From contig JAMPIU010000206.1 in assembly GCA_023667845.1 (NCBI GenBank), positions 124,001 to 188,000 of the forward strand: a stretch of DNA of 64,000 nt, read 5' to 3'. The position numbers and the translations under genes were made by a program. A model generated the notes under the pieces. It was not told the DNA's origin. It made no database searches and worked only from the letters and a program-made list of their open reading frames with translations. This DNA comes from Dehalobacter sp. (GTDB taxonomy: Bacteria; Bacillota; Desulfitobacteriia; Desulfitobacteriales; Syntrophobotulaceae). Positions 13,731-17,313 of the stretch are shown here, piece by piece. The number at the start of each line of letters is the position of its first letter. The first letter of the stretch is position 1.

Positions 13731-13785
13731 TTTTCCTACCTCCTTAAACTGTCCTACTTACTTACATGATACTACTCAAGCTTGA

Positions 13786-13823
13786 ATAAAAACAGAAGGC
13801 TCATTATTTCTAATGAGCCTTCT
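13786..13823 (-). terminator. Attenuator terminator in the aromatic-operon leader
   Basis: Minus-strand RNA forms a perfect 13-bp stem (AGAAGGCTCATTA / TAATGAGCCTTCT) with a GAAA loop, followed by GTTTTTATT. It lies about 55 bases before the aroF start and after the leader peptide stop. The 5' arm (GCTCATTAG, 13810-13818) is also perfectly complementary to CTAATGAGC at 13895-13903 within the leader ORF, so terminator and antiterminator exclude each other. Confidence 0.85.
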
Positions 13824-13865
13824 TTAACAGTATCGTATTTCAACTTCGGTTTCTCTCGACCGGGG

Positions 13866-14036
13866 TCAGGCCGCAAGGCAATTTCCCGCCGGATGCTCAT
13901 TAGTGAAGAGAGAAAGTATTCTATTGTAGAACAACCAAAAATAACCGGTGCTAAAATAAAAGTAATAATAGCACTGGCTAAAGCTTCTAAACACAAAAGT
14001 ATTGATTTGTTCTAACATTCTCTTACCGCTAAGCAT
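13866..14036 (-). CDS. Aromatic-rich leader peptide of the aro operon
   Basis: A 56-codon ORF starting at ATG 14034-14036, 8 bases after GGAG (within TTTTGGAGAATG), ending with TGA at 13866-13868. It encodes 8 Phe, 6 Tyr and 1 Trp. Residues 23-37 read YYYFYFSTGYFWLFY, 11 aromatics out of 15. This is what a ribosome-stalling leader for an aromatic-amino-acid operon should look like. Codons 22-24 (13966-13973, TGCTATTA) can pair, with one bulged G, with TAATGAGCA at codons 45-48, and that segment can instead pair with the 5' arm of the terminator. Ribosomes stalled on the Phe/Tyr/Trp codons would cover the first segment and favour antitermination. Seen directly: ORF, composition and complementarities. 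Inferred: the regulation. Confidence 0.82.
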   Translation of the reverse strand: MLSGKRMLEQINTFVFRSFSQCYYYFYFSTGYFWLFYNRILSLFTNEHPAGNCLAA

Positions 14037-14103: not shown

Positions 14104-14487
14104 ACGAAAATTATTGTATGCCTTTCTTTTTCTGCATTAGCTTTACTGGTATTTGGAGGATAATTATTGGCTTTCTTTTCTTATCATCCGCACAAGCATG
14201 AACAAATCTGCAAATTTGGAAGTATTTGTTAAATAAGAACATTGAAAATAAACCCGCTAAACTTGCTTTTTTATTTAGCGGAGCCAGAAAATAGCGCCTC
14301 TCTATAGGCATTCGTAATTCATCCATTTTTTTGAATACGTTTTCAAATATATAACATGTTTCAGGAGGAAATATACATTTTGTGGCGAATTTTACATAAA
14401 ATTGGTTAAGCTGAAAGTTTCCCATGTCAAAATATCTTAGCAAAGAACACCGCAGATGACTTGTGTTTAAAAAGGGGGGTTTTCTCG
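14104..14487. other. AT-rich intergenic region without a convincing gene
   Basis: About 380 bases between the aromatic promoter and the ComX-like gene. It holds an inverted repeat CCGCTAAA / TTTAGCGG (about 14250-14283) whose minus-strand reading is followed by a T-rich stretch, so it may be a weak terminator. A minus-strand frame of 110 codons (14111-14443) lacks a ribosome site and known motifs. No ComQ-like isoprenyl transferase is present. Confidence 0.5.
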
Positions 14488-14682
14488 ATGAACTACGACA
14501 GTATTGCTAATTTGGTTCATGATTGTGTTAGAAATCCCAAGATGTTGTTGGCACAAAACAGCAAACACGGTAACATGGTTAAGCCCACTGAGTTCACTAC
14601 AATTCAGAACGTTTTATCCGACTACAGAGTTTCTGGCGGCACTATTAGTATGACCGTATCTCCACTGGACAGTTGGCAATAA
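14488..14682 (+). CDS. ComX-like signal peptide precursor (putative)
   Basis: 64 residues from the ATG at 14488, 8 bases after AAGGGGGG. The layout resembles ComX competence-pheromone precursors: an N-terminal helix ending in NP (IANLVHDCVRNPKMLL), a middle segment with TEFTTIQNVLSDY, then a short C-terminal tail SPLDSWQ whose only Trp is the penultimate residue; in ComX the prenylated Trp is likewise near the C-terminus. There is no signal sequence, also as in ComX. It lies 124 bases before a ComP-like PDZ sensor kinase on the same strand. No ComQ modification gene is nearby, so prenylation is uncertain. Similarity is by pattern only; a different peptide signal or a small regulator cannot be excluded. 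Confidence 0.55.
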   Translation: MNYDSIANLVHDCVRNPKMLLAQNSKHGNMVKPTEFTTIQNVLSDYRVSGGTISMTVSPLDSWQ

Positions 14683-14740
14683 ATTAATCACTTATAACTT
14701 TCGGCTTGATTCAAATTGTGTTTCAAATGGAACATAAACA

Positions 14741-14780
14741 ATACTGCCAGGCACGATCGTAAAGAAATGCCTGGCAGTAT
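14741..14780 (+). repeat. Perfect 13-bp inverted repeat between peptide and kinase genes
   Basis: ATACTGCCAGGCA pairs with TGCCTGGCAGTAT around a 14-base loop. No T-tract follows, so it is not a standard terminator. It may set the ratio of peptide to kinase message by RNA processing or partial termination, or be a protein-binding dyad for a kinase promoter. Confidence 0.7.
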
Positions 14781-14806
14781 ACATCATTAGGGAAGTAGTT
14801 TGAGAA

Positions 14807-17188
14807 ATGAATATTTTACGGGAAAAAATTCAAAAAAAACAAATTTATTATCTTGCCAGCCTAATATTTATTTTAATCGGGCTCGTTTACTTCTTTTCCT
14901 GCTTTCAGCGCCCTTTTGTCGGTTTAGATATGAAGAACTCCAGCGGTCAGTGGTATGTGGTTAGTGCCAATCAAAATGGAGAAGGGTATCAATTGGGTAT
15001 CCGGGTTGGTGATCAGATCCTTAAAATCAATTCGCAGGATGCGGGAGACTATCACCTGTTAAAGAAATGGGGGCTGGCCGAAGGCGCTCATAGTATCAGT
15101 TTTTCTGCTAACAATAATACAACAGTACAGACTTTTACTATAGAAATTCTGCCTGCTTACCAAACGATATTTATACTTCCATATTTCATACTTGGGTTTA
15201 TTTTCTGGTTCCTGGGATTTATAGCCTGGTTGAAACGTCCTTTTTTAGTACAGGCCCGTGCTTTATTTTGGTTAAATTATTTCATTGGTTTAGCCATTCT
15301 TCTATCTCAAGCTTCCAGCCGCGCGTTGTTTCTAGGTAAAGAATTGCAGTACATCGCTTTTTTACTGACCGCAGTAGCCTTAGTTTATTTTTTCTCAATT
15401 TTTTCGGAAGGAAATAACACGAAGGTTAATCAATTAGGCTGCAAACTTGTAACAGTTCTTGCCGTAGTATTTTTTATACTACTCGGTATACATGCCATAT
15501 GCTTTTTCAGTCTTTCAAGTTATTTGGTTAAACTGGCATTATTTACGATGATTATCAGTATTTTATTTGTTGTGGTTAACCTGATTCTATTAAAATCGTC
15601 AAAAGATCAAGCAGCGAAAAATGAAGCAAATATTATTCTCTTAGGGTTACTGATTGGCTTCTTGCCTTTTTTTCTTTTTACAGCGCTGCCTGCTCTTTTT
15701 GATTTTAAGCAATTGGTTTATAGTTATGTAGATTCATTTTTTGCCCATTTATTGATTTCAGCTGTACCCTTCTCTCTCTACTTTGTAGTTGTTAATAAAT
15801 ATCTCCCGGATTACCGCCGGATTTACGAAAGATTCATTATTTGTATTATCTCGTCGGTTTCTCTTAGCTTTATCTCGTTGTTAATCTTTTATATTTTAAA
15901 AATTGTGCCTTCTATCACGTTTGAAGTCTATATAGAAATGTTTTTCTTAATTTTTATCCTGATTGTTTGTTCATATTATCTCCAGATTATTTTAAGTAAA
16001 CTATTTAAAAAATCAGGTTTTCTTCAGGAAAAGCAGAGCTTCAAACAAAGGATTGAGGAATTAAACGAGAATCTGACATCCCTGATTGCCGATGATCAAA
16101 TACTCATAGAAATGGCCCAAAATCTTGAAATTGACGGGATTTTCCTTGTTACTGATAATGTCCATTTTCGTGGTCTCAATAAAGCTGTTGGCCGTTTCCA
16201 AGAGAATCTTGTTGAACGTGAAATATTGGAAGAATATTTTAACAACCATAACAAACTTGATATGGAAACGAAAGTACTTGCGGATGATTTTCCCGCTGAA
16301 GTTTTTGTTCCTTTTTCGTCTCATAATTCAGCCTGCGGCGTTTTTTTCGGCCACCGCTTTTCAAGAATTAAGTTTATCCAGTCAGAATTATCTTTTCTGA
16401 CGCTTCTTGCGGGTCAGCTGGTTTATCAATTGCTGATATTAATTGTGATCAATGGCCTTAATAAAGAATTAATTGTGTTAAATGAACGTATAAACGATAC
16501 CAAAACAATAAGCGAAACAGAAATAGAAAATACTATTCCCCCAAATTTTGTATATTCACTTTTTGCAAATATGAATAATCAAGATAGTCTGATTCCGAAA
16601 TTATTAACCGGTCCGTACCACTATGTTCTCGATCAATACAGTTGGCTGGACTACTTGCAAAGAAAGAATTTACCGGAGAGTGTAAAACAGCAAACGATGC
16701 TGAAAATTGGGGAAATCGACCGAGATATTAAGTTTGAAATTTTAGCAAAAATTGATAAGCGCAACCCTCCGCTGTTAGATAAGTCGGGGCTATTACCGAC
16801 TATTGAATTGTGGATTCAGGATTTCATGCGTGAAGAATTGGCTTTAATAATTTTAAATACTTTTGGGATAGAAAATAACAATCGTTTTGATAAGCAAATT
16901 GAAACTGTAGCCTTTCGCTTTATCGAAAAAGGAATCATTAACGCCCTGCGGTATTCAGAGTCCTATGTATTTAAGGTTGATATTATTCTCATAAAGAATA
17001 TTTTGGAGATCATAATCAGCGATAATGGTAAAGGATTTGATGTAAATGAACTGGAAACTTGGCTTATTTCCGGTGCTCATTCGGGTTTGGCTGTCATGAA
17101 GGAACGTATTGAAAGTGTTGGCGGACAATTGAAAATTACTTCACAAATAAATAAAGGGACAACACTAAAAGCAATTTTTCAAGTATGA
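14807..17188 (+). CDS. ComP-like PDZ-domain membrane sensor kinase, H-box apparently degenerate
   Basis: 793 residues. TM1 (about 13-31) is followed by an extracytoplasmic PDZ-like domain (about 35-110: VVSANQNGEGYQLGIRVGDQILKIN), then about eight membrane helices (115-395), a cytoplasmic linker and a C-terminal HATPase domain. This is the architecture of Bacillus ComP. The ATP lid motifs are intact: N box EKGIINALRYSE (about 706-717), DNGKGF (about 739) and HSGLAVMKERIESVGG. PPLLDKSGLLPTIELWI (about 654) fits the end of a HisKA_3 domain. Where the phospho-acceptor motif (RIAxxIHD) should lie, about 570-586, I read EIENTIPPNFVYSLF, with Pro in place of His. No response regulator is adjacent. 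The gene is AT-rich compared with its neighbours, suggesting transfer. It probably senses the upstream peptide. Confidence 0.72.
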   Translation: MNILREKIQKKQIYYLASLIFILIGLVYFFSCFQRPFVGLDMKNSSGQWYVVSANQNGEGYQLGIRVGDQILKINSQDAGDYHLLKKWGLAEGAHSISFSANNNTTVQTFTIEILPAYQTIFILPYFILGFIFWFLGFIAWLKRPFLVQARALFWLNYFIGLAILLSQASSRALFLGKELQYIAFLLTAVALVYFFSIFSEGNNTKVNQLGCKLVTVLAVVFFILLGIHAICFFSLSSYLVKLALFTMIISILFVVVNLILLKSSKDQAAKNEANIILLGLLIGFLPFFLFTALPALFDFKQLVYSYVDSFFAHLLISAVPFSLYFVVVNKYLPDYRRIYERFIICIISSVSLSFISLLIFYILKIVPSITFEVYIEMFFLIFILIVCSYYLQIILSKLFKKSGFLQEKQSFKQRIEELNENLTSLIADDQILIEMAQNLEIDGIFLVTDNVHFRGLNKAVGRFQENLVEREILEEYFNNHNKLDMETKVLADDFPAEVFVPFSSHNSACGVFFGHRFSRIKFIQSELSFLTLLAGQLVYQLLILIVINGLNKELIVLNERINDTKTISETEIENTIPPNFVYSLFANMNNQDSLIPKLLTGPYHYVLDQYSWLDYLQRKNLPESVKQQTMLKIGEIDRDIKFEILAKIDKRNPPLLDKSGLLPTIELWIQDFMREELALIILNTFGIENNNRFDKQIETVAFRFIEKGIINALRYSESYVFKVDIILIKNILEIIISDNGKGFDVNELETWLISGAHSGLAVMKERIESVGGQLKITSQINKGTTLKAIFQV

Positions 17189-17210
17189 TTTAAGTACATA
17201 AAAGAAAAAT

Positions 17211-17256
17211 GCCTTTATTACGACCTCTTAAATCTTCCCTTTTAAAAAGGCTTTTT
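17211..17256 (+). terminator. Terminator downstream of the sensor kinase
   Basis: GCCTTT pairs with AAAGGC across a long AT-rich loop, followed by five T; it lies 23 bases after the kinase stop. Confidence 0.5.
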
Positions 17257-17313
17257 CAGTGGCCTTATATTAATAAGGACTCCGGCTGTTTTTCATAATC
17301 AGAGCCGTCCCCG

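Follow-up and report, generated by a model that had tools for sequence, protein, structure and literature searches.

A candidate pseudo-kinase version of the ComQXPA signaling system in Dehalobacter and its relatives

Results

A ComX-like peptide gene and a ComP-like receptor gene stand side by side in the window, the 64,000-nt stretch of Dehalobacter DNA analyzed here (part of G000:C206), and the receptor has a leucine where most of its relatives have the phospho-acceptor His. The same loss is seen in a supported clade of receptors whose linked regulators are also degenerate. We put at about 0.5 the probability that these loci are a pseudo-kinase/pseudo-receiver version of ComQXPA, in which the signal is relayed by docking without His-to-Asp transfer. 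The features of the window pair are the following:

14488-14682, + strand: comX-like pheromone precursor, 64 aa; codon of the sole Trp, Trp63, at 14674-14676
14741-14780, + strand: 13-bp perfect inverted repeat in the comX-comP gap, RNA fold z −5.6
14807-17188, + strand: ComP-like receptor, 793 aa, with TM, external PDZ-like domain, multi-TM block, soluble region, DHp and HATPase
16604-16606, + strand: Leu600 codon, at the phospho-acceptor position where most relatives have His, placed by the receptor alignment and the DesK alignment
16934-17185, + strand: HATPase_c domain, residues 710-789, with N712, D739, G741, G743, G760 and G784 intact
14112-17312, no strand: stretch of about 3.2 kb bearing comX and comP, missing at the same site in G003 and G005

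The comX start is preceded by a strong Shine-Dalgarno-like stretch, and comP follows after 125 bases. A preliminary description of this DNA, made from the letters alone, had reported a 64-residue peptide with a lone penultimate Trp directly before a ComP-like sensor, with no ComQ and no response regulator adjoining; the two ORFs bear this out (Trp at 63 of 64), and so did a check of the neighboring genes. Of the four adjacent genes that make up a comQXPA locus (comQ, comX, comP, and comA), the window thus has comX and comP only. The inverted repeat between them occurs at a single place in the genome and is kept in D. restrictus (G004), where one G-C pair has become G-U. It is not followed by a T-run, and is possibly an attenuator or a processing hairpin.

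In the genomes G003 and G005 the DAHP synthase gene and an FmdE-like gene lie side by side with clean breakpoints in blastn, the left flank match ending at window position 14111 and the right one restarting at 17313, and tblastn found neither comX nor comP at these empty sites. In D. restrictus two transposase-like ORFs interrupt the receptor orthologue and leave it as two ORFs (L031, 4461-9631), so the pair is dispensable there. The window pair is therefore an accessory module found in two of the four close Dehalobacter genomes, and, as the flanking genes are the same across genomes, contamination is unlikely. Next to the DAHP synthase gene, small overlapping ORFs on the minus strand (window 13772-14036) are kept in G003, G004, and G005; they include a hydrophobic stretch with a Cys that resembles autoinducer precursors, and neither they nor the minus-strand ORF at 14111-14443 had a match in NCBIfam.

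To place the pair, we searched for its relatives, first in 25 genomes from the family and next in 74 from the order, and found about 40 full-length receptors, with similar loci across Dehalobacter and Syntrophobotulus-, Desulfitobacterium-, and Desulfosporosinus-type genomes. The majority of these receptors sit in loci ordered comX-comQ-comP-comA, where the linked comQ codes for a polyprenyl-synthase homolog with a DDIQD motif and the linked comA for a regulator made of a receiver and a GerE domain. A second locus type, with the canonical order comQ-comX-comP-comA, occurs in the same bacterial group, and its peptides match the Pfam ComX family (PF05952) with E-values down to 3.7e-29. In most loci homologous to the window pair comQ lies directly 3′ of comX, a place that comP takes in the window.

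The comX-first peptides (n = 32) share a common layout in the family alignment, with the Trp invariant in 32 of 32, and the window peptide matches the family profile at E 1.4e-26. Like a ComX precursor it is short, carries its Trp near the C-terminus and stands beside comP. The preliminary description had made the case for a ComX-like peptide depend on a profile match somewhere among the homologous loci. The window peptide itself gave no match to PF05952 at E ≤ 10, and only two of the 32 family members did so (best E 0.034, below the cut-off), whereas six of six canonical peptides used as a positive control matched, the best at 3.7e-29. A search of the whole genome with the same profile gave no match either, but neither did the control genomes, and we did not take this as absence. 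Nevertheless, a peptide from a homologous locus in G166, which belongs to a different family of the phylum, passes the PF05952 cut-off of 25 with 33.5 bits, matches the peptide family of the window at E about 4.7e-8 and also adjoins a comQ. Moreover, hhalign aligned the comX-first family to the canonical ComX set with a score of 33.9 and a probability of 92.9, while 200 column shuffles scored at most 15.6. Judging from this bridging peptide and the profile comparison, the window peptide is homologous to ComX. With 32 peptides sharing the layout and the invariant Trp, and with full-length relatives of the receptor (E down to 1e-214), the pair is more than a chance arrangement.

The genome of the window also holds a complete comX-comQ-comP-comA locus on contig C51. 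Two peptides of the comX type were counted in this genome, along with a single ComQ and a single close ComA. The last two both lie on C51, as the unlinked partner that the preliminary description had envisaged alongside a genome-wide search for prenyltransferases and orphan regulators; the regulators linked to receptors of this kind proved to be degenerate, as detailed below. All genomes of the genus have a counterpart of the next ComQ match (E 1e-10, about 31% identical), and we therefore take this match to be an ordinary prenyl synthase. Both ComPs of the genome lack the His, so an intact ComP partner, or mixed ComP dimers, cannot supply it. That the window receptor pairs with the C51 ComA is a guess, based on this being the sole close ComA in the genome. 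Other arrangements were seen elsewhere. In G006 (L039, 7351-12448) two comP genes that encode the His stand in tandem after a comX-type peptide, with neither comQ nor comA adjoining, and in G008 a second comX-like frame with an internal stop (G008:C77:39442-39636) lies near a short comP fragment and is, together with it, a remnant of another pair.

The receptor begins with TM1 (residues 11-35), followed by a PDZ-like region (PF17820, E 5.7e-4, under the curated cut-off) and about nine predicted TM helices between residues 117 and 402. After these come a soluble region, a long helix, the DHp, and an intact HATPase_c domain (E 3.9e-7). It thus has, beside comX, the multi-TM sensor, the HATPase, and the ATP-binding boxes of a ComP-type receptor, and the boxes had been correctly described as intact. 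The best structural match of its CA domain is the CA domain of VraS with ADP (Z 19.1, 131 residues aligned, 1.8 Å). In AlphaFold the full-length model is of poor quality (mean pLDDT 55), and even when the transmitter was modeled by itself the DHp did not rise above about 60, so we make no structural claim on the DHp and use the CA domain alone.

What the receptor lacks is the phospho-acceptor His of the HisKA_3 motif. In an alignment of 48 receptors this column holds His in 37 and Leu600 in the window receptor, which reads K-L-L600-T-G-P-Y-H605 against E-I-H-D-G-P-L-Q; when the family profile was aligned to DesK (3gig) with HMMER, this column fell on 'ARDLHDT', the H-box of DesK. The absence of the His had been recognized in the preliminary description, which named Pro578 as the substituted residue; we rejected that assignment, as Pro578 sits in a six-residue insertion upstream of Leu600. 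The window protein is not matched by the HisKA_3 profile.

Nine receptors that have Leu, Ser or Cys in place of the His form one clade (SH-aLRT 99 in a quick-mode tree without bootstrap). Leu is found in the window receptor, its D. restrictus orthologue, and four Dehalobacter-type comXQPA receptors, Ser in G008, and Cys in G027 and G028, which we take to be Desulfitobacterium-type genomes. Two separate losses occurred elsewhere, to Tyr in G042 (L161, 2998-5346) and to Asp in G063 (L176, 391-2817). The residues of the N-, G1-, and G2-boxes are invariant across the nine receptors. A conserved His elsewhere in the dimerization helices, which the preliminary description had named as grounds for giving up the claim, was not found in any conserved DHp position across the clade. 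Being common to a supported clade of nine receptors, the absence of the His is no local accident. It is shared by receptors with linked ComQ and ComA, and is older than the window pair; loci that keep all four genes have it too. The four Dehalobacter comXQPA receptors and G008 keep a DxxxQ/H motif, with D directly after the lost His (+1) and Q or H four residues further on (+5), as does the G042 receptor; at these two positions the window receptor has T and H, and G027 and G028 have A at the first.

The His-less transmitter evolves under purifying selection: the window pair has a transmitter dN/dS of 0.18, other pairs of the clade range over 0.13-0.36, and His-bearing controls give 0.16-0.17. 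Within the window pair the ratio falls from 0.67 in comX to 0.40 in the sensor half and 0.18 in the transmitter. Between the comP genes of G004 and G003 (L033, 5619-7973; L034, 6422-8767) dS is 1.5 in the sensor half and 0.09 in the transmitter, a mosaic that would be expected if the signal-sensing part had been replaced, as in the Bacillus pherotypes (reviewed in PMC4008528).

The linked ComA-like regulators of the His-less clade all have Ser or Gly as the second residue of the acid pair. DS or DG stands in place of DD in seven of the eight His-less loci, against one of the 32 His-bearing loci (L037 of G020, the sole exception), and the regulator of G042, whose receptor has Tyr, keeps an intact DD. 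The conserved Thr is gone too in G008, G027, and G028. As Dehalobacter still has it, and no member has lost the phospho-accepting Asp or the Lys, some phosphorylation may remain. A receiver without any one of five key residues has been defined as a pseudo-receiver (PMC12632262), a definition that covers these regulators, all of them outside the window. On the tree the parallel losses of ComP and ComA amount to essentially one event, and so carry no statistical weight of their own; a test of ComP His against ComA DD on independent pairs was dropped, as there were too few independent events.

Discussion

The window pair would be an accessory signal-receptor module of a ComX/ComP-type family ordered comX-comQ-comP-comA. 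Its precursor would probably be prenylated on Trp63 in trans by the single ComQ of the genome, then trimmed and released, and the released peptide would be sensed outside the cell by the TM/PDZ part of the receptor. The receptor is best pictured as a pseudo-histidine kinase, with a nucleotide-binding domain, a docking helix and no phospho-acceptor, whose partners would resemble the regulators of the sister loci in lacking the Mg-binding second residue of the acid pair. Phosphotransfer is unable to bypass the His (PMC12632262). The most likely output would be docking to a ComA-like regulator, controlled by pheromone and nucleotide and acting through allosteric activation or sequestration. We infer that the window pair signals at all. 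On the larger claim, that this is a selected and stable pathway in which both halves of phosphotransfer were abandoned together and a lipidated peptide signal reaches a transcription factor by ATP-gated docking, we lean slightly to the negative.

A receptor that works only as a phosphatase, its DHp DxxxQ motif dephosphorylating ComA in a pheromone-switched manner while another kinase or a small-molecule donor phosphorylates it, would fit the motif kept in the four Dehalobacter comXQPA receptors, G008, and G042, as well as the retained Asp and Lys of ComA, the more so as the His is reported to be nonessential, and the Gln to be key, in HisKA_3 phosphatases (PMC5231405; PMC3510030). We consider it unlikely, however: the motif Asp is replaced by Thr in the window receptor (His at +5) and by Ala in G027 and G028, the loss of the Mg-binding residue from the regulators, and of the Thr from some, argues against control by phosphate, and the His is missing less often from HisKA_3 than from HisKA domains (PMC12632262), which speaks against a general phosphatase role. 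Given a window receptor without the motif Asp and degenerate regulators, docking is preferred.

Less probable again is a pheromone sink or decoy, in which the window pair would have ceased to signal to DNA and its receptor, by binding pheromone or by pairing with that of C51, would tune the main locus in a cheater- or pherotype-like way. The lack of a linked ComA or ComQ, the presence or absence of the pair within the genus, and the fast evolution of comX and the sensor half against the conserved transmitter are all in keeping with it, but a pure sink would have no need of a conserved ATP-binding domain, and the conservation of the transmitter suggests an active cytoplasmic role. Least probable of the alternatives is recent decay, the window pair being what is left of a complete locus after the loss of comQ and comA. 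The transposase-interrupted orthologue in G004, the second comX with a comP fragment in G008, and the missing pair in G003 and G005 would suit it; the window copy, however, has an uninterrupted frame of 793 codons, a dN/dS well under 1 and intact residues for ATP binding, and the His loss predates the pair and is common to loci with all four genes.

Like ComQXPA of Bacillus subtilis, the docking system proposed here combines a short Trp-bearing precursor, a ComQ-type polyprenyl synthase, a multi-TM HATPase receptor, and a NarL-type regulator. It differs in that comX precedes comQ, the peptide falls under the Pfam ComX cut-off, the receptor clade is His-less, and ComA is degenerate, and the window copy further lacks comQ and comA. 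The canonical loci of the same order (G020 L040, L180-L186) share the four gene families, but have comQ first and both His and DD intact. DivL of Caulobacter belongs to the HisKA family. It too has a histidine-kinase fold with the His replaced, the other boxes kept, and no autokinase activity; unlike our receptors it carries Tyr and a PAS sensor, regulates CckA without a peptide pheromone, and has as its partner DivK, a phosphorylated receiver (PMC4211667). The HisKA_3 kinases DesK and NarX have related DHp and CA domains, and the CA domains of VraS and DesK are the nearest solved structures, but DesK and NarX keep the His and work with normal receivers. Genes for a prenyltransferase, a Trp-terminal peptide, and a histidine kinase also lie together in PalQ/PalX/PalP of Paenibacillus alvei, although there the precursor is of the NHLP type, its Trp is strictly C-terminal, and the described cluster has no regulator (PMC10853753).

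In the part available to us, the comQXPA census of Dogsa et al. (2014; PMC4008528) names Syntrophobotulus and Desulfosporosinus, with comX between comQ and comP, and holds no mention of a comX-first order or of Dehalobacter. Literature phrase searches returned no case of a quorum-sensing pseudo-histidine kinase, and quorum sensing is not mentioned in those genome papers on Dehalobacter that were searched. In one published survey the His was missing from 0.3% of HisKA_3 domains (PMC12632262); the His-less receptors described here score under the HisKA_3 cut-off and could escape surveys of this kind.

Pseudo-histidine kinases and pseudo-receivers are known mostly from isolated odd cases. Here the two occur together, linked and conserved, and their input is of a known kind. 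The switching of pseudo-receivers has been called unknown (PMC12632262), and a linked pseudo-pair with one defined signal makes that question testable. In organohalide-respiring bacteria that are used for groundwater clean-up, this would be a quorum-sensing system not reported so far. Dehalobacter and its relatives have a peptide and receptor of the Bacillus ComX/ComP kind, and probably relay the signal in some other way than by phosphate.
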